A stretch of DNA of 64,000 nt from Ulota crispa (lineage: Eukaryota > Streptophyta > Bryopsida > Orthotrichales > Orthotrichaceae): positions 8,683,219-8,747,218 of the forward strand of contig OY987251.1 in NCBI GenBank assembly GCA_963920765.1. The letters are read 5' to 3'. Every line of letters starts with the position of its first letter. Position 1 is the stretch's first letter. Positions 13,743-39,193 of this stretch are shown piece by piece. The notes beneath the pieces are model-generated. The model was not told the origin of the DNA. It did not search any database and saw only the letters and a list, made by a program, of their open reading frames with translations. The position numbers were made by a program, and so were the translations under genes.

Positions 13743-14120
13743 GCAGCACATACGTCAATGTGGGGCCAAGGCAAAAAAACTTAGGTATTTTTCCCAACAA
13801 GGGCAATAGTAATACTTTGTCCCTATTTTTTTTGTTGTTGTTCAATTACATCCATCCATTGGGGTTCCAAACTAATGCATGGTCTTTGAATCAAAATATG
13901 AATTCAAAATTCTCAAATTCAATCTCTCAATGGTAATTATCCAAACTCTCACATTTTTTGGCGAGTGAACAAAACAGTGCTTTTCGTTTATCACCCTGGC
14001 CCCACACCAACGTCGACGCACATGCAAGAAACTGAACCCGTGGAGGCGTGGGGAGAGGTGGCGGTGGGGTCACCCTTGAGGTATTCTCCTCTACTAGTCC
14101 AAGCATTTTCAGTCTTCTAA

Positions 14121-14434
14121 GAGCATCTCCACCGGTCCAGACTTGCTCAAAGTTTTCCATTTGGTTTGGCAAGGCTTGAAGGCTCTCAATCTCCACCCAT
14201 GCTCTTTGAAAAGGTGGCCTTACACTCAAACACACCCCATAAATAAGCAGTTGACCACTTATCTAGGAAAGTAGAGAATAAAGCTCACTAAACTTAGGGT
14301 GAATAGTGCATGAATAATGGCTTGGAGAGTGGCTTGCTAGACTAGCCAAATAAGAGAATTTGAGAGGGGCCTGAGAGGGGCCTGGCTACTTTTCATCCAC
14401 TTTGAGTGAGCCAGAGCCACCAGTGGAGATGCTC
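14121..14434. mobile_element. GAGCATC-type MITE M0
   Basis: Ends GAGCATCTCCACCGG and CCAGTGGAGATGCTC. Flanked by TAA at 14118-14120 and 14435-14437. A 3-bp TAA/TTA flank suits PIF/Harbinger-type MITEs. First of a head-to-tail series of related elements. Non-coding: the minus-strand frame across its left part has no recognisable domain. Confidence 0.7.
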
Positions 14435-14437
14435 TAA

Positions 14438-14577
14438 GAGCATCTCCACTCCAACACGTAAGGAGAGCCGAAACCGAGATCTATGCATATTAAGAGCCAT
14501 TAGATCATGATGTAATGGCTCTTAATATGCACAAATCTTGGTTCCGGCTCTCCTTATGTGCTGGAGTGGAGACGCTC
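14438..14577. mobile_element. GAGCATC-type hairpin MITE M1 (carries an empty TTAA site)
   Basis: A 140-bp hairpin. Ends GAGCATCTCCACTCC and GGAGTGGAGACGCTC, flanked by TAA on both sides (14435-14437 and 14578-14580). The inner arms are 'catattaagagccatta' and 'taatggctcttaatatg'. At 14522-14525 the sequence CTTAATATGC has one TTAA, which is the unoccupied form of the site where the 15220-16441 element sits in the related MITE M2. Confidence 0.8.
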
Positions 14578-14580
14578 TAA

Positions 14581-15100
14581 GGGCATCTGTAATGCACCTC
14601 GGGAAAACTCTCGGCAAGAATCTCAGTACTTTAGTCCGATCTTTTAATAGAAGGAATTTGACCATAAATTTTTAATGATTTGAAGGGAATTGAAAATATT
14701 ACTATAAAAACATAATAATATTTGGATTTGGACATTGCATATTTAGATATATCCCATCAAATGTTAACTAACTTCCAAAATACTTAGAGGCCCCTCCAAA
14801 TTAGGCCTAAGTAAGGAAATTTTAGTAAAGGGGTTGGCAAATGTACCAACTCCTTTACTAGAATTTCCTTATTTAGGCTTGATTTGGGGGGGCCTCTAAG
14901 TTTTGTGGAAGTTAGCTAATATTTGATGGGATATATCTAATCATGCAATGTCCAAACCCAAATATTATTACATTTTCACAATAATATTTTCAGTACCCTT
15001 CAAATCATATAAAAATTTATGGTCAAATTCCTTGTCTATTAAAAGACCAAAGTACCAGGATTCTTGCCGGGAGTTTCCTCGAGGTGCATTGCAGATGCCA
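14581..15100. mobile_element. 520-bp foldback MITE M3
   Basis: Long hairpin: the left arm starts GGGCATCTGTAATGCACCTCG and the right arm ends GAGGTGCATTGCAGATGCC. The arms are about 240 bp each with scattered mismatches. The centre is 'ggttggcaaatgtaccaac'. TAA flanks (14578-14580 and 15101-15103) again suit a PIF/Harbinger-type element. Confidence 0.8.
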
Positions 15101-15734
15101 TAAGTTACTGTAGTTTGGAACAAAAACCTAAGAGCTTCTCCACTGCAGCTCGTAAAGAGACCCCCATTATTGTGCTTCACATATTAAGGGCTATCACATC
15201 ATGATCTAATGACCCTTAACCCCTCAAGGCCCAAGGGGACCAAATGTGTCCCTCCTTGTTTGTAATTTGAGTTGCCTAAATTTTCTTCATGATTAATTAC
15301 AATCATTTTTTTAAAGTTCTTGTAGAAGTCTTGTTTTAGTATCAAAAGTCCAATTTTGAAAATGACTAATTATAACTTTTCTATTTAAGATTTTGTGCAA
15401 GGGTGTCCATTGCAAATCTTCACTTTCTAGTGTTGAGAGCTCTTGGAAATGAGCCTAAAGTACACTAGAACTTGGAGAAACAATCACATTATAAATTTAA
15501 TTTAAAAAGTTGGAGACTAGATTTTGAGAAGCCAGAAATTGATTAGGGTTATGCATGTTGTACTTTATATACTCATATTTGTTTGGTATCCTTAATTTTA
15601 AATTTGAGATCTAAAAAGAGGATTGAAAAACTCCAAATCACTTTCACAATTTTAACACCCTCTTGATCAAATGTTATAATCTTTCAATTCATAAGTGATA
15701 TTGTGTTTTCTTTTCTTACATGATCTCTAACATA

Positions 15735-16315
15735 CTCCCTCCGTCCCATTATAAAGCTCCAAAAAACTTCTCCATGAGGGATTAAATGTATTTTTAGTCA
15801 TTATGCTAGTGATAAATACATTCTAGAATCAATATACCACAAACCAAATACCTACAAAATCTCATGTTTTTATGTTGCCGTTTAGACAACCAAATTCCAT
15901 GCAAAAAGTACCATATTTGTGCATAGTTTGTGAAGGCTGCTAGCTCCTCATTATCATAGTCTTTGTACTAATGACACATGCATTCTAGAATCAATATACC
16001 ATCTACCAAATGTGTGCAAAATCCCCACTTTGATGTTGCCGTTTGGGCTTCCAAATTCCATGCAAAAAGTACCATATTTGTACATGTTGCTAGCTCCTCA
16101 TGATTGATGATTCAAAGATTAGTAGCAACAATGGTACCTCATATGGGCAAGGCCAAGCTTGTTAGGAGAGGAATGCTCTTTAATTGCTTAACTTGCCCCC
16201 ATGAGATCATTGGACAAGACAAATGCTTTCTCAGCAATTGAAATTAGCAAAAGGGAACTTTTTAGTGGGACAAGAACTGTGCCCAATTTGGAGCTTTATA
16301 TTGGGACAGAGGGAG
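15735..16315. mobile_element. Stowaway-like (Tc1/mariner) MITE
   Basis: A 581-bp element with 26-bp inverted ends, CTCCCTCCGTCCCATTATAA... and CTCCCTCTGTCCCAATATAA..., differing at two positions. Flanked by TA on both sides (15733-15734 and 16316-16317). The uninterrupted copy at 1730-1736 reads 'aacaTAtctag', confirming a TA target. The CTCCCTCCGTCCC end is the well-known Stowaway-type terminus. Internally there is a tandem duplication. Confidence 0.9.
15811..16110. repeat. Internal tandem duplication of about 155 bp in the Stowaway-like MITE
   Basis: Two diverged copies of a block holding 'cattctagaatcaatatacca', 'gatgttgccgttt' (or 'atgttgccgttt'), 'ccaaattccatgcaaaaagtaccatatttgt' and 'gctagctcctca', starting near 15811 and 15968. 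This explains why the MITE is longer than typical Stowaway elements. Confidence 0.75.
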
Positions 16316-16595
16316 TATCTAGTTTAAATTTGTACGGTTATAATTTAAAAAAAATTTGATCCAACTTATCAAAATGTTAACATTTTGTTCATCCAAGAAC
16401 ATATTTTGAGATACTCAAGAAAGTGCATGGGCCTTGAGGGGTTAATATGTGAAGCACAATATTGGGGGTCTCTTTATGGGCTTCAGTCAAGAAGCTCTGA
16501 GCATTCCCACCCTTGCTTCCCATCCATGTATGCACACATGGCGTTAACAACACCGTGCTTTTTGCTTCGCTTGATGCTCTCCAAGAAATGATTAA

Positions 16596-24628: not shown

Positions 24629-25158
24629 CCTCTAAACGCCCAAGGGGTAAGGGCAAAACATAAATGCAAAAATACTCTTGTAACTTCAATGAAGTTTTTT
24701 CCAAAAGAGAAAACAAGAATCATGATGTTTAGCAATTATCCATATGGTCAAATATTCAAAAAAAAATTGTACTCTTATTTAATGAATTTAGAAGCATTTA
24801 CCATTAAATATTCACCAAATTTACAAATTTTACTCATAGATTTCAAAATTTGGCATGATTGGTTAAAAATAGACATTCTATCCTAAACTTCAAAAATGCT
24901 ATCTTTGAAAGGAGGGAACATCATTAGTTTCCCGTAATAGTAAATTCTACAACAATAGCAAATATTGAAGTGTTTGTCTTTGAAAAATTCTCCTTGGAGG
25001 AGTTTAACTTGAATTGACATGATTAAAGTTAAGTTGGAAAGTAGACTTGATTTTCTATTACAAAAAAAAAAAAAATTCTTTGAAAAAAGTTTATTTTGGT
25101 CTTGGGCAGCCTAAAAAAAGAGCAACTACAAGAAAATGGTCAATTGGGCGCTTACAAG
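24629..25158 (-). mobile_element. piggyBac-like MITE, family D copy 2 (inverted)
   Basis: A 530-bp reverse-complement relative of 2111-2633, flanked by TTAA on both sides (24625-24628 and 25159-25162). The left tip is CCTCTAAACGCCC and the right tip GGGCGCTTACAAG. The right tip has lost the GGGG. It abuts the next element through a single shared TTAA, as at 2634-2637. Confidence 0.75.
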
Positions 25159-25162
25159 TTAA

Positions 25163-25880
25163 CCCCTAAAGGACCATGCCCCCTTTTTGGGAACAAATGG
25201 GATTTTGGGCACGTAACTATGGCTAAACTACTTTGCGTGATTTTTTGACTCTTTTATGGGAGATGGGAAATTCAAAGATCTATGTGTGCATCTAATTTTT
25301 CCTCATTTTGACATTTATTGAAGAAGTTAAAAATGAATTTATGAGAATTTTAGTTCGGCGGGCAGCCCAAAAACTTTTTTAAAAATTGCATTTTTTAAAA
25401 ATAAAAATTCAAGGTTAGTTCTTTAGACTTATGTATATGTAGGAAGATTTGAATCATTCAATTCTAATTGATGGGATGAAAGTTATGAGAAGTTTTAGTT
25501 TGCGTGTTGGCATTGTTTTGAGATTCTCCACACCTACCCGCGAACTAAAACTTCTCATAACTTTCATCTCATCAATTAGAATTGAATGATTCAAAGCTTC
25601 CCACTTATATATAAGTCTAAAGAACTAACCTCAAATTTTTATTTTAATAAAATGCAAATTTTAAAGAAATTTTTGGGCTGCTCGTCAAACTAAAATTCTC
25701 ATAAATTCATGTTTGACTTTTTCAATAAATGTCGGAATGAGGAAAAAATTAGATGCCCACATAGATCTTTGAATTCCCCGTCTCCCATAAAAGTTTCAAA
25801 AAATTACACAAAGTAGTTTAGCCATAAGTACATGCCCAAAATCCCAAAAGTCCCCCAAGGGGACTTTGGTCTTGTAGGGG
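25163..25880. mobile_element. 718-bp foldback piggyBac-like MITE, family F
   Basis: Starts CCCCTAAAGGACCATGCCCC after TTAA and ends CTTTGGTCTTGTAGGGG before CTAA. Almost the whole element is a hairpin: 25163-25510 pairs with 25530-25880 ('gcccaaaatcccaaa', 'cccataaaag', 'gcttcccacttatatataagtctaaagaac' in the right arm). Non-coding. A long foldback with TTAA ends is unusual. Confidence 0.75.
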
Positions 25881-27943: not shown

Positions 27944-28471
27944 TTATGGAAAAAAAATTAGATATTGAACGCACCTATATATTTTTTTGCTCCAACGAAG
28001 GTTTTCATGGTATTTCATGAAACACCCCGCACGCCAACACATGAACTTATTTCTACATGAAGGGCAATAAGTACTTGGATGTTTCAATAGAAGTGTACCT
28101 TTGTTGCATACCACGCACGAACCCCTTGATTTACTAGTTGCCGGATAACATACTCGTTCAAGTGGCATAGCATATGTGACTGGCATTTTGGACTTCCAAT
28201 TATCTGTGAGGGCTTCACACAATTGGGTCCTAAACTGTAGATGAGTCATAAGAAGTTGTGGGGGTTGTTCTCTCTTGCACTTCTCAATATAGATGATGTA
28301 CATATTCAATACACTTGTATCAATAAGAAAATAGAAAACCCGGTGCCACCACTTGTGGCACCGGGTTTGGCAAGAATATAAAGCCCAGAGTTGATCGGCC
28401 ACATCAACTCCTCTCACGTGAGTGGTATATTTAACAAACATTGGAAAGGTTTGAATATATTCACGTACCAA
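27944..28471 (-). pseudogene. piggyBac-type transposase, C-terminal piece
   Basis: An open 175-codon segment of a piggyBac superfamily (DDE_Tnp_1_7) cut-and-paste transposase. Residues about 13-55 hold the family signature: YTTHVRGVDVADQL, then CHKWWHRVFYFLIDTSVLN. The aspartate of GVD..DQ is the third catalytic acid region. The C-terminal end (residues about 120-165) is Cys-rich, with CVVC, CPSCRNKF and CWRAGC followed by MKYH, the zinc-binding finger typical of the family. The piece is cut at 28471/28472 by a solo LTR; the protein continues at 29978. Stop at 27944. No stop lies inside this piece, so it was well preserved until interrupted. Confidence 0.85.
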
Positions 28472-29977
28472 TGTCCTGATGGAGATGCCTCCATCATGTA
28501 GATATATATTATTTATCTATGTTTGTGTTGGTTTCAATAAATCAACAGTCGAGGCAAAAAATGTAGGAGTGATGAGAATCGCCGTTTGAAAGTAGCATAG
28601 CGGTTATAAATTTCAAGGCAGTGCGCCGTCTTGTCACATGCATAGCTCAGGAGATAGATAGCGAGTTGATTGGGTTAATTTTCTGCCTCACTAGTGTGCC
28701 AAGTTGTGGGCCGCCATCACCGCTCGACGAGTTTGATTGGGTTTGAATCCAAACCGGCGGGCGGCCAAAGGCGACCGCTTTTTTAACCAACCAAGTCCAC
28801 GACTTGGCGATTAAAGACAAGCGTTTAATGCTATTATATGCTTGCAAAGGCATGTGACCACTTTACGGTGGTGTTTATCTTTTATATATATATATTTTTA
28901 TATATTTATCTAGGTGTTTTGGAATGCTCATATATTTTGCCTTTATTTTAATAAAAATACTAAAGATTTAAAAGTAAATTGGAAAAGTGTGTAGAAGTTG
29001 GGGATTTGGGTGCTCTCTAAAAAATTGAGATCCAAACTTTGATTGACTATAACTTTTGGATAGAGTTTTAGTTTGTAGTGAATTTTTAGGGATTGTAGTT
29101 AGTGGTATTATTTTTCCAAATTGATATTATGTTTGCATGGATGATATGTAGAAAAAAAGTTATAGAAGTTTAAAGATGCAGTGTTTAGTTTGCAAGGAGG
29201 GAGAAAAGCTTCTACTTTGAACCGTATAACTTTAGGACAGTAGTTTAGATCGAGTTGAAATTTGGAGGGATGTAAAAATGTTAGAAGGGCTTTTCAAAAT
29301 GTCATTACACATAGTATTTGGATCTTTGAACCATCTATGACACTAGATAAAATTTTGCAACCTTTTTAAGACTTGTTTATTGTGATTTTTTTCATTGTTT
29401 TTATTAAAACATGAAAACTTGAAGATATGAAGACATGAAGACTTGAAGATATGAAGATTTGAAGATATAAAAACTTCAAGAGGAATATTTTGGATTTATT
29501 TTTTATATATGTGTGAGATGTGGTTTTGTTATTCTTAGCTAGTTTGGAAGCTCGTTTGTCATTTTATTTATATTATATTTTGTAAACCTTGTTGCAAGCA
29601 ATTTGGATTAAACCAAACTTAACTCCATTTATTGTTGTGGTGACGAAATTGAATTGATCATTCACATGGTCGAAACTTGCTCTGTTCTCACAATCTAGAA
29701 TTCTGGCCAGCAAATCATGAATTTGATTTTAGGTTTCTATCATACGGATGGCAACTCGTATCTGCTGTTTTAATCTATCCGTCCTGTATCCAGTGAGCTC
29801 TTATCCCTACTTTGACCCTTATACCTCTAGAGCCAGCCACAAGATAGGCCAACAAAAGACAAAATACTGAAGATTTGAAAAGTGAAGATCAAGATCAGCG
29901 GCATTTCCTAGTTAGTTACGTACAATCGCAACTAGACACCCTCTGTGTTCTCAATGCTCGCTCTTCTCAACCCAACA
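28472..29977 (+). mobile_element. Solo LTR (diverged relative of the Ty3 LTR), plus orientation
   Basis: Starts TGTCCTGATGG and ends TTCTCAACCCAACA, matching in reverse complement the LTRs at 30833-32992 and 39244-41403, but only about 1506 bp against 2160 bp and clearly diverged. Shared landmarks are 'tttcaataaatcaacagt.gaggcaa', the tRNA-like block, 'gaagatatgaagacatgaag' and 'ctatcttgtgg'-type sequence. No internal domain is attached, so it is a solo LTR. It lies inside the piggyBac transposase. Clean target duplications are not visible, although GTAC occurs near both edges (28465-28468 and 29980-29983). Confidence 0.8.
28735..28812 (-). other. tRNA-like (Pol III box) block in the solo LTR
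   Basis: On the minus strand, 'gtggacttggttggttaaaa' is followed by 'agcggtcgcc', 'ggccgcccgccgg' and a B-box-like GATTCAAACCC. Same block as in the two intact LTRs (GGTTCGAATCC), so it was present before this LTR family diverged. Confidence 0.5.
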
Positions 29978-30832
29978 AAGTACTGTTTCAATGTGGCACC
30001 GTCGTAATCGGAAATTCACAAGGAGCTTGCACATGTACCATATGAATAGAGAGGATAAGCACGAGCCACTTGTCCTTCCATACTATCTCCAAAATGGATC
30101 TAGACACATGCATTTGCCATTGCAATGAGCTATGTGCGCTTCTAGCACAATTCCTCAAATTCTTCAGAAGTGAGGGAAATCCAATTCTATTTGCTCTCAT
30201 AGTACCAATTGCATAGATATGCTTCTATAACAATTCATAAAACAATTATATACTGATAAAAAAGTTATCCATCACAATAATATATTTTTGGCTCTTGTAT
30301 GACGATCATAATTGCAGTACCACATTATGTGCTAATTTAGAGTGCCCACGTAATATGGATGCGTCATCTGCGACACTCACATCCTTCCTACAATATACCT
30401 CGAACTTCAAAACGAACTTTGATGCCGAATCTATAAGACACCAGACTTTCACCTCCCAATTCTGTGGCTTCGCTGGTATGTACTACCTAATTGGACAAAA
30501 TGAACATTTATACCTAATCATCATCTTGTCTATCGTGCCGAATTTCTCAAGGCTCCTAGAGAATTGACATGCCTGCCCAATAGTCTCTATCAACTATTGA
30601 ATCTGTCCCAATTTCTTGTATCCAGGAGAGGCTTTCTCTCAAATATAGATTTTATGATTAATAATATGTATGAACCTTGTTAGCGACCAAAACCGGCTCC
30701 AAGATATGAGATTGGAGATAATTGAACAATAAAAAATTGTACCTCGTTTTTGCTAATAGGATTTGATATTTGGTTGTCTTTTCATCTCCATGTATATAAG
30801 AATGGCAATGAACACGTGTAACTCTTTCACGG
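29978..30832 (-). pseudogene. piggyBac-type transposase, central piece
   Basis: Minus-strand translation in several frames with stops. In protein order: FIAILIYMEMKRQPNIKSY (about 30800-30740), then MMIRYK and YIPAKPQNWEVKVW (about 30510-30430), LIDSASKFVLKFEVY (about 30430-30380), MDNFFISI (about 30265), YAIGTMRANRIGFPSLL (about 30220-30170), and WKDKWLVLILS near 30050. These match, in order, the conserved blocks of piggyBac transposases (D in the LID block, MDNFF, G-T-R-NR). At least four in-frame stops or frameshifts show decay. Bounded on the left by the solo LTR and on the right by the Ty3 element. Confidence 0.8.
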
Positions 30833-32992
30833 TGTCGGGTTGAGAAAAGCGCGCCTTGGGAACACGCAGGGTGTCTTGCTGCGATCGTGCGTTGCCGACT
30901 GAAAACGTTGTCAATCTTGATCTTCTCTTCAAATCTTCAGTCTTCAGTCTTCCGTTGGCCTATCTTGTGGCTGGCTCTAAGGGTATAAAGGTCAAGGTAG
31001 GGATAAGAGCCCACTGGATATGGGACGGGTAGATCGGGACAGCAGACACGAGCTGCCGTCCGTATGACGGGATCCTAAAATCAAATTCACGATCTACTGG
31101 CCAAAACTCCAGATCGTGAGAACAGAGCAAGTCTCGACCATGTGGGTGATCAATCCCACTTTGTCACCACGACAATAAATGGGGTTAAGTTTGGTTTAAC
31201 CCAAACTGCCCGCAACAAGGTTTACAAAACAGAATAGAAATGAATTGACAAACGAGCCTCCAAAACCGGCTAGGAATAACAAAGCCACATCCCACACATA
31301 CATAAAAAATAAACCCAAAACATTCCTCTTGAAATCTTCATATCTTCAGATCTTCAAATCTTCATGTCTTCAAGTCTTCAAGTCTTCATGTTTTAATAAA
31401 AACAATGGGGAAAATCACAAATAACAAGTCCTAGAAAAGGCAGCAACCTTCTATCTAATGCCACAGATGGCTCAAAGATTCAAATGCTAAGTGTAATAAC
31501 AATTTGAAAAGCTCTCCTAACCTTCTAACATCCCTCTAAATTTCAACTCAATCTAAGATATTGTCCAAAAGTTATGCGAGTTCAAAGTAGAGGCTCTTCT
31601 TCCTCTTTACAAACTAAACACTGCCTCTAAAAACCTCTATAACTTTTGTTCTATACATCACCCATAGAAACGTGAAATCAATTTAGAAAGATGATATCAC
31701 TGGCTTCAACCCATAAAATTTGCACTTCAAAACAAAACTTTGTCCGAAAGCTCTAGTCAATCAAAGTGTGGGTCTCAATTTTTTAGAGAGCACCCAAACC
31801 CGCAACTTCTACCCACTATAACTTCTTCAATAAAACTCCAAATGAAATGATTAAAGACAATTTGAAAAGCTATGACAACAAACTATCACTCCTAAAATTT
31901 TGAGAAGAAAATCTCATACTGTCCAAAAGTTGTAGCTCTTCAAAATCTCGGCTTTCTCCTAACAAAAGGGCAGCCACCTCCAAACCTTCACACTTCCATA
32001 ACTTTCTCGTCCAAGCTTCAAACCTCAAGTTTAAAGACTTTCTAAAAAGCCAATAATAAGATAAACACTCTCTCCAAATCTTGTTGCAAAATGATATACG
32101 GATCATAAGTTATGGCTTGTCGAAGTCTCAGCCTTTCTTCATAGTTTGGCTTTTTGACTCCAAAATTCAAACACTCATAACTTTTGCATCACAACTCCAA
32201 ATCAAACTTGCAAACTCATTTTGGAAAGGTAATCACACAAGGAACAACCTCCTCAAATTTCAATTCAAAATCACGTATACACAGAAAAAAATCTCCTCTC
32301 AAAGTTTCGGGATTTTTCCCTTTCTTCCCACCAACACTCATACACTAACTTCCAACAACTAAGGGATCTTTCCTCCACAATTTCGACCCTATCTAAGGTA
32401 GGGAGGTGGGGCACATCAGCCCATGCTCCTCCTTATCCTAACCCCACCATAGATGCCAAAACCCTTTTCCTTTCACACATTTCCCATTGACTTCTAAATC
32501 CTTAGTATTTTTATTCAAACAAAGGCAAAATATATGAGCCTTCCAAAATCTCTAGATAAACATATGAAAATGATTAAATTACAAAATAAACACCATCGTA
32601 AAATGGCCACGTGCTCTTGCGAGCATATAATAGCGTCAAACGCTTGTCTTCAGTTGCCAAGTCGTGGACTTGGTTGGCTGGAAAAGCGGTCGTCTCTGGC
32701 CGCCTGCCGGTCCGGGTTCGAATCCCATCGAACTCGTCGAGCGGTGATGGCGGCTCACGGCTTGGCAGCTAGTGAGGCAGGAAATTGGCCCAGCCAACCC
32801 GCTACCTACCCCCTTGAGCTGTGCATGTGACAAGACGGCGCAGCGCATTGGAATCTATGGCCGCTGCGCTGTCACCAAACCGTGGTCCTCACCACGACCA
32901 CCCCTTTTGCCTCAACTGTTGATTTATTGAAATCAACACAAATATAAAGAAATAACAAGTATTTACATGATGGAGGGAAGTCCATCAGGACA
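30833..32992 (-). repeat. 3' LTR of the Ty3 element
   Basis: A 2160-bp repeat. On the minus strand it begins TGTCCTGATGG and ends CAACCCGACA (TG...CA). It differs from the other LTR at two adjacent bases near 30845, two near 31096-31105, one near 32044 and one near 32706, as far as I can see. Confidence 0.95.
32650..32730 (+). other. tRNA-like block with Pol III box B, in the 3' LTR
   Basis: 'gtggacttggttggctgg', then 'aaaagcggtcgtctctggccgcc', then GGTTCGAATCC at 32715-32725. The last is a perfect box B; a weak box A candidate (TGGCTGGAAAAGCGG) lies about 25 bp upstream. It is antisense to the LTR. Probably a tRNA-derived SINE fragment built into the LTR; it does not fold as a full tRNA. 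Confidence 0.5.
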
Positions 32993-32995
32993 TGC

Positions 32996-33003
32996 ACCCT
33001 CTC
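32996..33003 (-). other. Polypurine tract of the Ty3 element
   Basis: On the minus strand AGAGAGGG followed by TGCA lies just upstream of the 3' LTR (TGTCC...). It overlaps the very end of the pol frame. Expected role: primer for plus-strand DNA synthesis. Confidence 0.6.
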
Positions 33004-36000
33004 TAAACCTGCACATCCTCCGGTATGTGCCAAGTTTGCTCGTCATGAATATCTTGGTTATCTTTTGCATCTTCTGAATCTTCATCTTTATCTTCAGCTC
33101 TTTCGTGGCTTTCCATCTCTTGAGGGTTAAAAATCTCCTCAAGGTCTTCATGATGAAATTTTCCACTCCTTCGAAAAGCTTTGATTCGTTTACCAGCAAC
33201 AGGCACGCGCAGAGAAGTCCCATCCAATTCCCTAAGTGAATAAGTGCCGTTGGTGTGCACTTTCATCACAATATAGGGTCCAAACCATCTCTTAGCAAAT
33301 TTGCGCACTGTACTATGCTGATGCTCCAATGTACTGTCAAATACAAGGACCCAATCACCCTCTCTGATCTGCTTGGTTCTTAATCTGTGTGTTTTGTCAA
33401 ATCGCTCTTTATTGCTGAGCCTTGCTGTCTTCATCTTCTCCAATGCGATATCAAGGTCACTTGACAACCTTCCAAGCTGCTGAATCCGAAGTTCCAACAA
33501 TCTTTCTTTGCTTATACCGTCCTCCCATGAAAGAAACACCCATGTGGGAATATCCTCTTCCGCCGGCATAATAGGTTTCTGCCCATACACAAGTTCGACA
33601 GGCATGTAACCAGTAACTGTACTGTGCGTAGTTCTGTCGGCCCACAAAGCAAATGGTAATAGCTTTGGCCACATATTTGGTTTGCCTTTACAAGCTTTAA
33701 CCAAAGCATGAATGATCGGAGGATGCCCTCTCTCAATTTTGCCATTAGCCTCAGGGTTGTAAGCTGTCGTCAGCTTCAACTGCACACCATAACGTTTGAA
33801 GAACTCTTTGGCCTCAGTGGCATTTAGTTCTCCTCTGTCAGCTCTCATTCGGCCAATGCTGCCATAACGACTGAAGATGTCTTCGAGTATAAATCGGCAT
33901 ACATTTTCGGTAGCCTTAGTCCTCAAGGCTCTGCCCTCAACGAAGTTTGAGAGCTCCTCTCGTGCCAAAACAAGGTACTTCATTCCCCACATAGCATTTG
34001 GCATAGCTACCAAATCTATCATCCACTGAAAATGGATCGCTAGAGGGTAAGTAGGATGTAATTCATCTCTGTGGCGCACCTTGGATTGCAATTGGCATAC
34101 CACACAAGAAACTACAAACTCTTCAACGTCTTTGTAAAGTACTTTCCACCAGTACCTCTCCTTGATTTTTGTATAAGTGGCCCATACACCTCTGTGACCT
34201 GCCCAAAGAGTATCATGGAACTCCTTGAGAACTTCAGCTTTGGTCTTAGAGTCCCCCACCACTCTCAATGGTACTTCATCAGCTCTTTTTGCCCTCTTCC
34301 ATAGAAATCCTTCTCTCAAAAGATATCTATAGGATTGATGCCTGATGTCTTTGAATGTTTTGTCTGTCCATCCTTCTTGCAGCTTCATTGTGCTTAAATA
34401 TAGCCCAATGTCTCTCAATTTTTCTTCATAAAGCTCAGCTTTGAATGGCAAAGTATCGATCGATGAGCTCTCAGCATCTATCGTCACCACATAGCCTCCA
34501 TGCAATAAATCTTCGACATCTTCGTGGCCCATCATCTCATCTTCATTAGAATACCTTGTTCTAGACAACATATCGGCAACAGAATTCTTTTTGCCTTCAA
34601 TGTGTACTAGAACCGAATTCATGGATTTGATGTAGGCGATCCATCGAAGCATTGCAATGTCTGGTGAAGAACAATTTGCTATCATCCCCAGCAAAGGTAA
34701 GCAATCAGTCTCCAGTACCACCTCTGCTCCAATAAGGTAATTTCTGTCCGCCTTCAGAGCTGTAAGAGCACCCCATAGTTCTCTTTTCATTTGTGGATAT
34801 GCTCTCTGACGCTCTGTCAAAATCCTTGCTCCAAATCGAATAGCAAATCTTTTGCCTTCCTCATCATCTTGTCCAATAGCCCAACCTATGGCAATTGGAC
34901 TTGTGTCAACAGTTACGATCACCGGCCTCTTGCAATCATAGTTCACTTGCTTGAGAACTAGTGGCGACTCCAAAATCCTCTTCAACTCTTCCATAGCCAA
35001 GTTTTGCTCATTTTCCCAAATGAATTTGGTCCTCTTACGCAATAATTTGTAGAGAGGCTCTGATATATGAGCAAAATGGGGAATCCATATGTGGTAGAAG
35101 ACACAAGCTCCAAGAAACCTCCTTACTTCGGTGATATTGCTACAGGCTTTCATTCTTCCAATAGCATCAATCTTTTCAGGATTAGGTTTTCTTCCATAAG
35201 AGCCACATAAGTGCCCAACCACCAGAATTTCATTCACCCCAAACTTTGACTTATCAATGGATAGAGTCAAATTCACCTCCTCAAGTCTGCCCAAGATTTG
35301 AGCCACGTCATGGATATGGTTGCTTACAAAGGCTCGGCAACCATCACTCTGAACTGTCAAGTCTCTTTGATTTTCCTCGCATCTTTTTATTGGGATATCA
35401 TCCACAAAAGGTATGGTTTTCTCTGGCACAAAGTCTCTTAGAATTTGATTCATAGCGCTTTGCATATGTGCCACTGAATTAGTAGCGCCTTGAGGCAATG
35501 TGCACATACGCACCAATCTAAGAGGAGTCTTCATGGTCGTCAAATCCCTGCTTTGAGCAGCAATTTGGAATTGATCATAACCAGAGTATAGATCTCCAAT
35601 GGAATAGATTGCATGTCCAGCAAATGCCTCCGCCACTTCGTCAACAACAGGGCCTGATCCTTTGTTTCTGATTGTAACTTTGTTTGCAGGCTGCATATCT
35701 TGGATGAACCTCAATGCTCCTGACTTCTTTGGCACAGTAAACCAACGGTTTGAATATGGAGCCATTGAAGGCTCTAGTATGCCCATGCGCGTCTTTTCTT
35801 TGAGCAACTCCACTAATTTTGGCAGTAGAGCTCTAGGCACTGGAATAGGCTTCAAATCCCATGGTATATGTGGTACTGTGAATATGACCATTGGTGCTAC
35901 AACACTTGGCTGCACACACCCAATCTCATCTGAAGAAGAAGCAAAAGCCTTTCCATGCATCAAAAGCATGTCTTGAAATTTCTTTTTCTCTGGCTCAGTC

Positions 36001-36590
36001 AGGAAACCATCTCCTCCAATCTTGAGGTTAGCTAGAGTCTCTTTGGTGAATTTGTGTCCAATTCTCCTTGACTCTCTCAAACTTGGCTCTTTTTCAGCTT
36101 GTTTGATGTGATCATCAGTGTCAAATGGTAGCTGAGTAGCCACTGGCTTCACCTTCTTGTTCACAGTCTTGTACTTGGTATGTACTGCAGCTTCAGGTCT
36201 ATATTCATCGATATTAGAAGAACACAGCTTTGCCATTGCTGTGTAAATCTCATGATGCATTGCAGCTGTATGGACATCAATAAGACAATGAGTAGTCGGC
36301 TCTGCATCCTCATTTGTCTTCAAATCTTGCAGAGTATGCAAGATATCATCTGGCATGCCACTTTCTTCATACACACCAGTAATGCTCTCATCTTCTTCAA
36401 GAACCTTCATTTTTTTTAGGTTTTTCTCCTTCTTTTTGATAAATCTTCTATGTACATGGTCCAAATCTTTGGCATCCATGAAACTCGCAAATCCACACTT
36501 TGTCACGCTCAAAAATCCACACTTGATAGCAGTATGTATATTGGGGAATTCTCTAGTATTGATATCCTTGGCACCCGTGGATCCCCACAT
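33003..36590 (-). CDS. pol: Ty3/gypsy pol polyprotein: reverse transcriptase, RNase H, integrase (1195 aa)
   Basis: Copies the element RNA into DNA and inserts it. RT spans about residues 240-450: first catalytic Asp in GDLYSGYDQF (D333), LPQGATNSVA (365-374), FVDD at 395-398. RNase H spans about 555-680: VTVDTS (D562), E604, LETDC (D629), SVADMLSR (D673). The integrase has an HHCC finger (H792, H799, C829, C832), a catalytic triad D859, D918, E953 (the usual 35-residue D-E step), and a GPY/F module (WFGPY, about 1102-1106). I see no chromodomain; the C-terminal tail is acidic. The first ATG lies 15 bases after the gag stop, in the -1 frame, but this frame is open about 75 nt further upstream, so it could be made by frameshifting or by re-initiation. 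No internal stop. Confidence 0.95.
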   Translation of the reverse strand: MWGSTGAKDINTREFPNIHTAIKCGFLSVTKCGFASFMDAKDLDHVHRRFIKKKEKNLKKMKVLEEDESITGVYEESGMPDDILHTLQDLKTNEDAEPTTHCLIDVHTAAMHHEIYTAMAKLCSSNIDEYRPEAAVHTKYKTVNKKVKPVATQLPFDTDDHIKQAEKEPSLRESRRIGHKFTKETLANLKIGGDGFLTEPEKKKFQDMLLMHGKAFASSSDEIGCVQPSVVAPMVIFTVPHIPWDLKPIPVPRALLPKLVELLKEKTRMGILEPSMAPYSNRWFTVPKKSGALRFIQDMQPANKVTIRNKGSGPVVDEVAEAFAGHAIYSIGDLYSGYDQFQIAAQSRDLTTMKTPLRLVRMCTLPQGATNSVAHMQSAMNQILRDFVPEKTIPFVDDIPIKRCEENQRDLTVQSDGCRAFVSNHIHDVAQILGRLEEVNLTLSIDKSKFGVNEILVVGHLCGSYGRKPNPEKIDAIGRMKACSNITEVRRFLGACVFYHIWIPHFAHISEPLYKLLRKRTKFIWENEQNLAMEELKRILESPLVLKQVNYDCKRPVIVTVDTSPIAIGWAIGQDDEEGKRFAIRFGARILTERQRAYPQMKRELWGALTALKADRNYLIGAEVVLETDCLPLLGMIANCSSPDIAMLRWIAYIKSMNSVLVHIEGKKNSVADMLSRTRYSNEDEMMGHEDVEDLLHGGYVVTIDAESSSIDTLPFKAELYEEKLRDIGLYLSTMKLQEGWTDKTFKDIRHQSYRYLLREGFLWKRAKRADEVPLRVVGDSKTKAEVLKEFHDTLWAGHRGVWATYTKIKERYWWKVLYKDVEEFVVSCVVCQLQSKVRHRDELHPTYPLAIHFQWMIDLVAMPNAMWGMKYLVLAREELSNFVEGRALRTKATENVCRFILEDIFSRYGSIGRMRADRGELNATEAKEFFKRYGVQLKLTTAYNPEANGKIERGHPPIIHALVKACKGKPNMWPKLLPFALWADRTTHSTVTGYMPVELVYGQKPIMPAEEDIPTWVFLSWEDGISKERLLELRIQQLGRLSSDLDIALEKMKTARLSNKERFDKTHRLRTKQIREGDWVLVFDSTLEHQHSTVRKFAKRWFGPYIVMKVHTNGTYSLRELDGTSLRVPVAGKRIKAFRRSGKFHHEDLEEIFNPQEMESHERAEDKDEDSEDAKDNQDIHDEQTWHIPEDVQV

Positions 36591-36604
36591 CCCACGTGTG
36601 CCCT

Positions 36605-39193
36605 CTAGAAATCCGGAAAGTTCAGAGAAGTCGGCAAAGATACTTCTCTGAGTTGCATTCGATGCCTCTCATTGTCAGCTCTCACAGTTAAGAACTGCAC
36701 TGACTTCTTCCCATCTATACTTCGAATTCGAGCATAGTGAGATCCATCATCCAACACTTTGGTTTCCATGCGTGAAGCAGTGATGAAAGGTTGGCCCAGA
36801 AGCACTGGATATGCCCCAGTATTTTGAACAAAGAAATTCTGCTCAACCTCCACATCTCCAATCTTTGCTGGCACTGAAGGGCAAGCTCCATACAATGAAC
36901 TGCGCCCATTGTTAGCTGCTCTCATCACCCAGCCATGTTCTGTGTCAATTGGCCATTTGCCCTTCTCATAGGTCTTGCGAGATATGATGTTGATCTCTGA
37001 ACCATGATCTACAAGGGCCAAAACAGATTCATCCATTCCACCAAGCTTCACTCTTGTTTCAGTGGTGGCTCTAGCCCAATACGGTTGCTGAAACTCAGTC
37101 TCGACATCATGAGGTCTATTAGTAGAATGATCACAACTGAACTCAAAAATCTTAGCTTCAACTTTTGATACTTCATCATCAAATGTCTGAACTTTTGCCT
37201 CATTAGCCTTTCCATTTGAGCGCTGCACCCTCTCTGGCTCTTTTCTTGTTATCTCCGTGAGTGTAATTTCACTGCAGTGAGCCTCATGGTCTCCCATCAT
37301 GGCAAAAACTTTGCCAATCTCAATCTCTTCATCGATGGTCATGTGAGTGTCCAAAGCACTCACCATTACAGTCTCTGCTGTCATCTGTCTCTTTTGCTTG
37401 ATGATGTCGATGATCAGCTCATGGAAGTCTTTCTTGGCTATGCCAAGTGCTTCCCTCAATGTGAACTCGATCTTGGCATCCAAGATCCTCTCTTCCAATA
37501 TTCCCTTCATATCAATGGAGGTCTCAATGTCGGACTGGAGCTTATAAGCAGGGTTCTTCCCCTTTGGCTTGCTAGAGTCTTCTTTCTCATGGCCTCTTCC
37601 GCTGCCGCTAGACTGCCCCCAGTCTCTATCAGGAAGCAAATCATCCTCAGGGTGCACAAAGCTTGGACTTTGTGTCTTCGAGCGCGTTTGTACTCTGCGC
37701 TTCGACTCATTTGCAGAATCTTTCTGCGCTTGAGCCCTCTTCTTTGATGAAGGCTCTTCACCATCTTCGGCTTCAACTCTCCCACGCTTCTCTTCAACTG
37801 AAGCCTCATAGTGATCAACATTGGCTTGATCTCTCTCCAAAAATGCTTTGATGCTGCTTGCATCAACCGGGTCTTCCCATCCAGTTACATTTCTGATGGC
37901 TTGGGCTCCTCGTTTCATTAGTGTGGCTCTCTGAGTGGATGAAGCTCCAATTGAGTGCTGCTCCACTTCAATGTGGTATGAATCAGCTTCACGTACATGT
38001 ATGGAACTAGATCGTCCCATCTTTCCCTCCATAAGTTTCTTCATCCCTCCTCTGCCAAAGTTGGTCTTCAATGGTGTCTTTGTGGATGAATCATGAAGCT
38101 TGCCGTCAATAAATTCAACGATGCCATCTTTCAAGGCCTCGTCGCACTCTGTACAGTCTCGAAGGCGATGCTTGCCATCTTGTTCGCTCTTGTCACACCA
38201 TATACATCTCCAAGGGAGTGTCCTCCCTCCATCAGATGGCTGCGACGATGAAGAAGAGCCAGATGCCTGAGACTTCCTCAACTCAATAAACTCCACCTTC
38301 AGCTCTTTAAAACTCTTGATGAGTTCTTCAAGAGCATTACCTTCGTTGGTTTTGGTGGTCTTCAAGATAGACCCTGGAGTTGTTGATGATGATGGTGCAA
38401 AAAATACTTTGGGACTTTTTGGAACTAAAATTGGATTAGTGTCTACTCCTGCTCCAAATCCTTTTGACCTCACACGTTGTTGTTTGGCCAACAAGGTCAC
38501 GGTCTCTTCCACCCTTCTCCAATCAGTGGTAAAACCACCTTCTGTGGTACGATCTCCAAGAAGTAGAAGAAGTCTATCCTCCAATGCAGCATCAGCTGCT
38601 TGAAGGAAAAGCTCTGCCTTCCTGGTGTTGAGGAGGCGTCTCTCAATCATGGGTAACTGAGAAAACTTCTTCTCAAAGGCCTTCAGCAGCTCATGAGCAC
38701 CCATGTTGTCTCCTGGCCGCTGCTCCACCCATTCTAGAAAAGATCTTCTGGTCATCCTTTCCGTGTCCTCGTCAAAGTACTCGTCACGTAGACGCTCAGC
38801 AAAGGCAATCCAAGTGTGAACTCCTTCGCGGATCTCTCGCACACGGTCACGAATGTCAGGCACAACTGCCATGTCGAAGGTAGCCATCATTCGATTTTCA
38901 TCAACTTGATGCACCTCCATCTCGCAAACATAGGCTCGCAAAAACTTCGTTATGTTCTTGCCGTCAAACCTACCAGTCTTCACAACAACAGCTTTCAATG
39001 CCTCGGTGGCTACTTGACCACCCTGGTTGGCTCGATGTTGCTCCATGAATATGGCCAATGCTCCTAGGAGATCCTCCATTGGCATCTGAGGTCCACCAAC
39101 ACCTCTGGTAGTGGCGCTTGGAACCTCTCGATGCAAACCAGCTCCACCGGCACCACCGGTATTGGCGCCGAAAGCCTCGTTACTGTCTGCCAT
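36605..39193 (-). CDS. gag: Ty3/gypsy Gag-protease polyprotein (862 aa)
   Basis: Structural protein plus protease. The N-terminal 1-40 residues are Gly/Ala-rich, followed by a helical Gag-like region with FDGKNITKFLRAY at about 76-88. A zinc-knuckle-like motif C330-x2-C333-x8-H342-x4-C347 is longer than the usual CX2CX4HX4C. A long charged Ser/Lys/Glu-rich linker (450-550) follows. A retropepsin-type protease occupies about 715-835, with active site LVDHGSEINII (D729-H-G, where DTG or DSG is usual) and the second signature VLLGQPFI at 797-804. It ends TAG 14 bases before the pol ATG. The protease belongs to this frame and not to pol. Open throughout. Confidence 0.9.
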   Translation of the reverse strand: MADSNEAFGANTGGAGGAGLHREVPSATTRGVGGPQMPMEDLLGALAIFMEQHRANQGGQVATEALKAVVVKTGRFDGKNITKFLRAYVCEMEVHQVDENRMMATFDMAVVPDIRDRVREIREGVHTWIAFAERLRDEYFDEDTERMTRRSFLEWVEQRPGDNMGAHELLKAFEKKFSQLPMIERRLLNTRKAELFLQAADAALEDRLLLLLGDRTTEGGFTTDWRRVEETVTLLAKQQRVRSKGFGAGVDTNPILVPKSPKVFFAPSSSTTPGSILKTTKTNEGNALEELIKSFKELKVEFIELRKSQASGSSSSSQPSDGGRTLPWRCIWCDKSEQDGKHRLRDCTECDEALKDGIVEFIDGKLHDSSTKTPLKTNFGRGGMKKLMEGKMGRSSSIHVREADSYHIEVEQHSIGASSTQRATLMKRGAQAIRNVTGWEDPVDASSIKAFLERDQANVDHYEASVEEKRGRVEAEDGEEPSSKKRAQAQKDSANESKRRVQTRSKTQSPSFVHPEDDLLPDRDWGQSSGSGRGHEKEDSSKPKGKNPAYKLQSDIETSIDMKGILEERILDAKIEFTLREALGIAKKDFHELIIDIIKQKRQMTAETVMVSALDTHMTIDEEIEIGKVFAMMGDHEAHCSEITLTEITRKEPERVQRSNGKANEAKVQTFDDEVSKVEAKIFEFSCDHSTNRPHDVETEFQQPYWARATTETRVKLGGMDESVLALVDHGSEINIISRKTYEKGKWPIDTEHGWVMRAANNGRSSLYGACPSVPAKIGDVEVEQNFFVQNTGAYPVLLGQPFITASRMETKVLDDGSHYARIRSIDGKKSVQFLTVRADNERHRMQLREVSLPTSLNFPDF

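Follow-up and report, generated by a model that had tools for sequence, protein, structure and literature searches.

The closest described systems, T. ni piggyBac (6x67) and piggyBat (9c0f), duplicate TTAA on insertion, have C-rich inverted ends and use a DDD transposase, whose catalytic residues in piggyBac are D268, D346 and D447 according to the available part of one report (PMC7351741). Both have animal hosts, and the group is known chiefly from animals, whereas the elements described here reside in a plant, with the same target, the same kind of ends, and a transposase of the same fold with aligned catalytic residues. In the accessible text of a review, PiggyBac is one of seven MITE superfamilies of angiosperms (PMC10004981), and in the accessible parts of other papers 1230 PiggyBac fragments amounting to 122,417 bp are tabulated for a fern genome (PMC6890710), a grass genome table gives one copy of 75 bp (PMC8319324), and occasional occurrences in plants, e.g., red algae, are mentioned (PMC12732532). 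Further papers name plants among the hosts of piggyBac, with no detail in the excerpts available. Elements of this kind are known, and there are earlier annotations of PiggyBac in plants (PMC6890710, PMC10004981). The available excerpts of three of these reports (PMC10004981, PMC6890710, PMC12732532) give no partner transposase, whereas here transposase-bearing elements with related ends occur in the same genome. Among the titles listed in bryophyte-specific searches of the open-access literature, no precedent was found for native piggyBac elements in bryophytes.

The window (the whole stretch of Ulota crispa DNA that was analysed, 64,000 bases) carries, at 15220–16441 on the plus strand, an element of 1222 bp as present that is very probably a piggyBac-type MITE. 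Its terminal inverted repeats, at 15220–15233 (CCCCTCAAGGCCCA, plus strand) and 16428–16441 (minus strand), are a perfect match over 14 bp, start with CCC (CC...GG overall), and are bordered by TTAA on both sides (15216–15219 and 16442–16445), in agreement with the CCCC...GGGG tips and flanks of the original prediction. In an inverted-repeat search of the window, 15216–15233 and 16428–16445 were complementary at 18 of 18 positions.

The predicted boundaries of the element stand, but its length as a single unit does not, since 581 bp of it is a nested Stowaway-type insertion (15735–16315) that had been overlooked. The CTCCCTCCGTCCC-type ends of this inner piece are presumably Stowaway ends. Like Stowaway MITEs (Tc1/mariner) it is flanked by a 2 bp TA duplication (15733–15734 and 16316–16317), a feature that the 15220 element itself does not show, and it sits there as a passenger. 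At all 28 sister loci tested (L011–L038) the site is uninterrupted, with at most 2 of 14 mismatches and with CATATCTA intact in 21 of them, so that, without the insertion, the element measures about 640 bp. These loci are 89–91% identical to the window copy outside the nested piece, and the 581 bp piece by itself matches dozens of other places in the genome, most of them at about 92%. A single locus points the other way: L002 (C1:12820416–12824495), which has different ends (TCCCTGAATGCC and GGCATTTAGGGG), is occupied by a Stowaway-type element where the window copy is too, and aligns with it across that element at 83%. This may reflect one inherited insertion or the same TA struck twice. It could be taken to mean that the 1222 bp unit moved in one piece and that the Stowaway-type part was ancestral cargo and no later insertion, but the uninterrupted sister loci and the independent copies of the inner piece make this improbable. 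In the 640 bp family the mean pairwise difference is 9.1% (28 copies, the one in the window included), and the majority sequence has no stop-free stretch longer than 58 aa. The family therefore has no coding capacity, and the label of MITE was correct.

Transposase genes were found elsewhere in the window and in the genome. Within the window, PF13843, the Pfam family of the piggyBac transposase, is matched at 27944–28516 and 30306–30482 on the minus strand, where a broken piggyBac transposase gene has its C-terminal part at 27998–28567, including a GVDVADQ motif, and its earlier part about 1.4 kb away at 29997–30953 (both minus strand). The stretch 27944–28516 matched the solved chains of piggyBat (1.5e-05) and piggyBac (0.00089), and the broken gene is 44–49% identical to the copy at the C7 locus. 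Genome-wide, 120 stretches matched PF13843 (best E 1.3e-73; 116 of 528 candidates were scored to give them, all above the cut-off), while none of 14 control genomes, whose identity is not stated, gave a match. Ten of the 120 stretches are free of stops inside the match, introns not being allowed for.

Eight of the transposase loci were fetched and examined for ends, and in two of them the PF13843 transposase lies within a TTAA-flanked element with CCCCT ends. These are the C5 element (TTAA|CCCCTAAATGCCTAA...|TTAA, about 5.7 kb) and L080 (TTAA|CCCCTTGAGGACTATG...|TTAA, about 5.2 kb), with end mismatches of 1/16 and 2/16, respectively; with the other 255 tetramers in place of TTAA, 0 of 79,241 and 0 of 40,603 pairs were that good. 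Both frames are interrupted by one stop inside the PF13843 match. At the C7 locus the right end (CCCCTAAAGGCCCAAG) is identical to the end of the 15220 element at 15 of 16 positions, and the left end is unsure, only end pairs with 3/16 mismatches being available. No matching TTAA-flanked ends were seen in the stretch read at the remaining five loci. A transposase-bearing element with exact CCCCTCAAGGCCCA ends was not found; on C1 and in the first 26 Mb of C2, the 28 PF13843 hits compared are all more than 16 kb away from each of the 126 listed exact ends. A TTAA-flanked 6.3 kb element carrying CCCCTCAAGGCC at its ends (L077, C1:19617150–19623720), chosen because both of its ends are exact, gave no match in a transposase search and may carry captured sequence. 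Two loci with largely open transposase frames, L076 (C1:1178700–1184000) and L078 (C2:34591900–34598700), show no TTAA/CCCC ends that match each other within the sequence read. Their G+C contents are 0.47 and 0.46, compared to 0.36 at the C7 locus and 0.37 at C5, and they may be either old copies or host genes.

The original prediction regarded TTAA duplication with C-rich tips as the signature of piggyBac. The TTAA itself holds, as described below, but its duplication alone is only suggestive because Kolobok elements also duplicate TTAA (PMC9587614, in the part available). That shared target is what would favour a Kolobok-superfamily MITE at 15220. However, Kolobok ends are given in the same text as 5′-RR...YY-3′, whereas those of the 15220 element read CC...GG, and a piggyBac transposase lies inside elements whose ends are of this kind; a Kolobok identity was rejected on the end letters and is very unlikely. 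The assignment to a piggyBac-like group is supported by the transposase, and the group is settled by its abundance in the genome, its presence in the window and its location inside the two TTAA/CCCCT elements.

The 389 aa stop-free frame of L078 matches PF13843 at 4.1e-67, and among PDB chains it matches piggyBat (2.6e-24) and piggyBac (7.6e-20). In the alignment, piggyBac residues D268, D346 and D447 all fall on D (positions counted by hand, D346 rechecked). An AlphaFold2 model of the frame has a mean pLDDT of 84.2, and its best Foldseek match is piggyBac 6x67 (8.4e-23). By its sequence and modelled fold, the transposase is of the piggyBac kind. Four of the moss transposases that were compared share 32–41% identity among themselves. 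Protein searches with the L078 and L072 frames returned 25 and 17 proteins; the best relatives, 39–50% identical, are without an organism name, and the named ones come from an ant (33%), a moth (33%) and a sea slug (34%). A tree of 39 rows (eight of the moss's own sequences and the 31 of 42 matches that are at least 300 aa long, rooted for drawing only) places the eight together with 11 unnamed sequences in one branch (support 100/99) that excludes the three named animals, and within it the moss transposases are interspersed with the unnamed ones. The tree indicates a separate and diverse group, not an age, because the root is arbitrary and the unnamed rows were retrieved with the moss's own queries.

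The 15220 element interrupts a hairpin MITE, M2, so that the order of nesting can be read from the outside inwards: hairpin, 15220 element, Stowaway-type piece. The left part of M2, up to and including the TTAA, lies at 15132–15219 and the right part at 16446–16497 (both plus strand), with TAA at 15129–15131 and TGA at 16498–16500. An unsplit relative, M1 (14438–14577), has TAA on both sides (14435–14437 and 14578–14580) and, at the counterpart of the M2 split point, a single TTAA (14522–14525). When the M2 flanks were joined with one TTAA and aligned to M1, 108 of 143 columns aligned with a score of 57.5, which dropped to 53.5 when both TTAAs were kept; the top score of 200 shuffles was 8. 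The original prediction of a split hairpin with one TTAA at the empty site is confirmed by this alignment. Its placing of the insertion in the hairpin is also correct, but 'centre' is loose: M1 holds two symmetrically placed TTAAs (positions 53 and 85 of 140), and the one used is at 85–88.

Other hairpins provide further empty and filled sites. L075, which is 89% identical over the first 88 bases of M1, is split at the same TTAA as M2 by a different element (ends CCCCCAAAGGACC and GGTCCTTTGGGG); both junctions were read through, and the flanks run directly into M1-like sequence. Nine partial hairpin matches (L081–L089) were also obtained, and eight of them (L081–L088) were inspected at the TTAA site. 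In two, L083 and L084, different TTAA|CCC elements interrupt the hairpin at this TTAA, with one junction read each, five (L081 and L085–L088) are unsplit with a single TTAA at the site, and in L082 the TTAA is lost. The five unsplit members do not bear out the possibility that the hairpin family already had two TTAAs at this position. The same TTAA has therefore been hit in four hairpins (M2, L075, L083 and L084). No claim is made for an insertion hot spot, as a rough hand estimate (two TTAAs per hairpin, 37 candidates, and a density of TTAA elements as in the window) gives about one expected split.

The hairpins of the M1 type can be classed as Tourist-type (PIF/Harbinger), judging from the 3 bp TAA/TTA duplication that the accessible text of PMC10004981 gives as the mark of Tourist MITEs. 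It is seen at M1 (TAA/TAA) and L075 (TTA/TTA) and is imperfect at M2 (TAA/TGA). Their GAGCATCTCC ends are without a match to a named family. M1 itself is part of a run of abutting inverted-repeat elements between 14120 and 15104 (about 14120–14435, M1, and a near-palindrome at about 14577–15104), with ends of the GAGCATCTCC or GGGCATCTG type.

Across the genome, TTAA directly precedes 381 of the 430 exact CCCCTCAAGGCCCA ends, and 49 are without an exact TTAA; the reversed control pattern does not occur at all, and the background is 303 TTAAs in the 64,000 bases of the window. For 29 further copies of the 640 bp family that were fetched (L010–L038), both ends could be placed in 28, with TTAA at the left end in 23, at the right in 25 and at both in 20, leaving eight that lack it on at least one side. 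The original prediction that copies elsewhere would mostly be flanked by TTAA is upheld by these counts. The target duplication that characterises the piggyBac superfamily is thus seen at ends genome-wide, in family copies, and in the empty and filled pairs M1/M2 and L075. Elements of the CCCCTCAAGGCC type number in the order of 2,600 in the genome, estimated from 2778 and 2797 matches (at most one mismatch) minus 192 and 202 in the control, at two ends per element.

Thirty ends located solely through the motif, equivalent to 25 elements once five facing pairs are counted singly, were bordered by TTAA in 28 cases and by TCAA and TAAA in one each; the outermost of the four bases was T in all 30, with variable bases further out. 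The M1/M2 pair alone is no proof of TTAA duplication, because T|TA|A with ACCCC ends gives the same letters, and to that extent it fits equally well a Tc1/mariner- or PIF-like element with ACCCC...GGGGT ends that duplicated TA, or the 3 bp TAA/TTA, with TTAA as its target by chance; but if TA were what is duplicated, the outermost base could be any letter, and the constant T argues against this and, together with the TTAA that precedes most of the exact ends, makes such readings negligible.

The preferred interpretation, to which we assign a probability of roughly 95%, is that the 15220 element is a non-autonomous transposon of the piggyBac superfamily that moved into a TTAA of the hairpin and was later hit by a Stowaway-type element. 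A piggyBac transposase supplied by another element would have recognised its CCCCTCAAGG ends; the 15220 element would then have been excised and pasted into the TTAA of the Tourist-type hairpin, the TTAA being duplicated in the process, and a Stowaway-type element would subsequently have inserted into it at a TA. Cut-and-paste movement by a transposase acting in trans is suggested by the ends, the target and the resident transposases.

Several other TTAA elements occur in the window. One (1223–1854) has perfect 14 bp ends (CCCCTAAATGCCTA) flanked by TTAA and TCAA, and a 37 bp stretch of its end, which takes in the TTAA, is a 94.6% match to the transposase-bearing C5 element. Probable TTAA elements lie at 2111–2633 and 24629–25158, with 4/14 and 3/14 mismatches between their ends and TTAA on both sides, and an element with a hairpin-like interior (25163–25880) has 2/14 mismatches and flanks of TTAA and CTAA. 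The last two abut, with one TTAA in common. A similar arrangement was seen at L049/L050 (C1:6537349–6537376), where two TTAA elements stand back to back with a single common TTAA, as if an existing flank had been reused as a target. The window also carries a Ty3-type retroelement (33003–39193, minus strand) with two long open frames of 1195 and 862 aa. Among the best 120 of 234 relatives of its first frame, those that carry a name come from liverworts, Riccia sorocarpa and in one case R. fluitans, which makes a bryophyte host likely. The best Riccia match to the Ty3 polymerase is 64% over 95% of the query (67% over shorter stretches), and relatives without an organism name reach 91% among the matches listed.

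It is notable how abundant and diverse piggyBac is in this bryophyte genome. A speculative extension, which we consider possible but doubtful, is that bryophyte-grade land plants carry an old, diversified piggyBac clade of their own rather than a recent import from insects, that TTAA MITEs have been inserted thousands of times here through its action, and that some of the largely open copies without TTAA/CCC ends (e.g., L076 and L078) are now host genes. Nested pairs of elements, such as those described here, give the relative order of insertions directly. The genome raises the question of whether a plant's own piggyBac might be used as a footprint-free tool. It also allows one to ask in what way a transposon specific for TTAA spreads in plants and, with its many transposase stretches and CCCCTCAAGGCC-type elements, where the piggyBac elements of plants originated.
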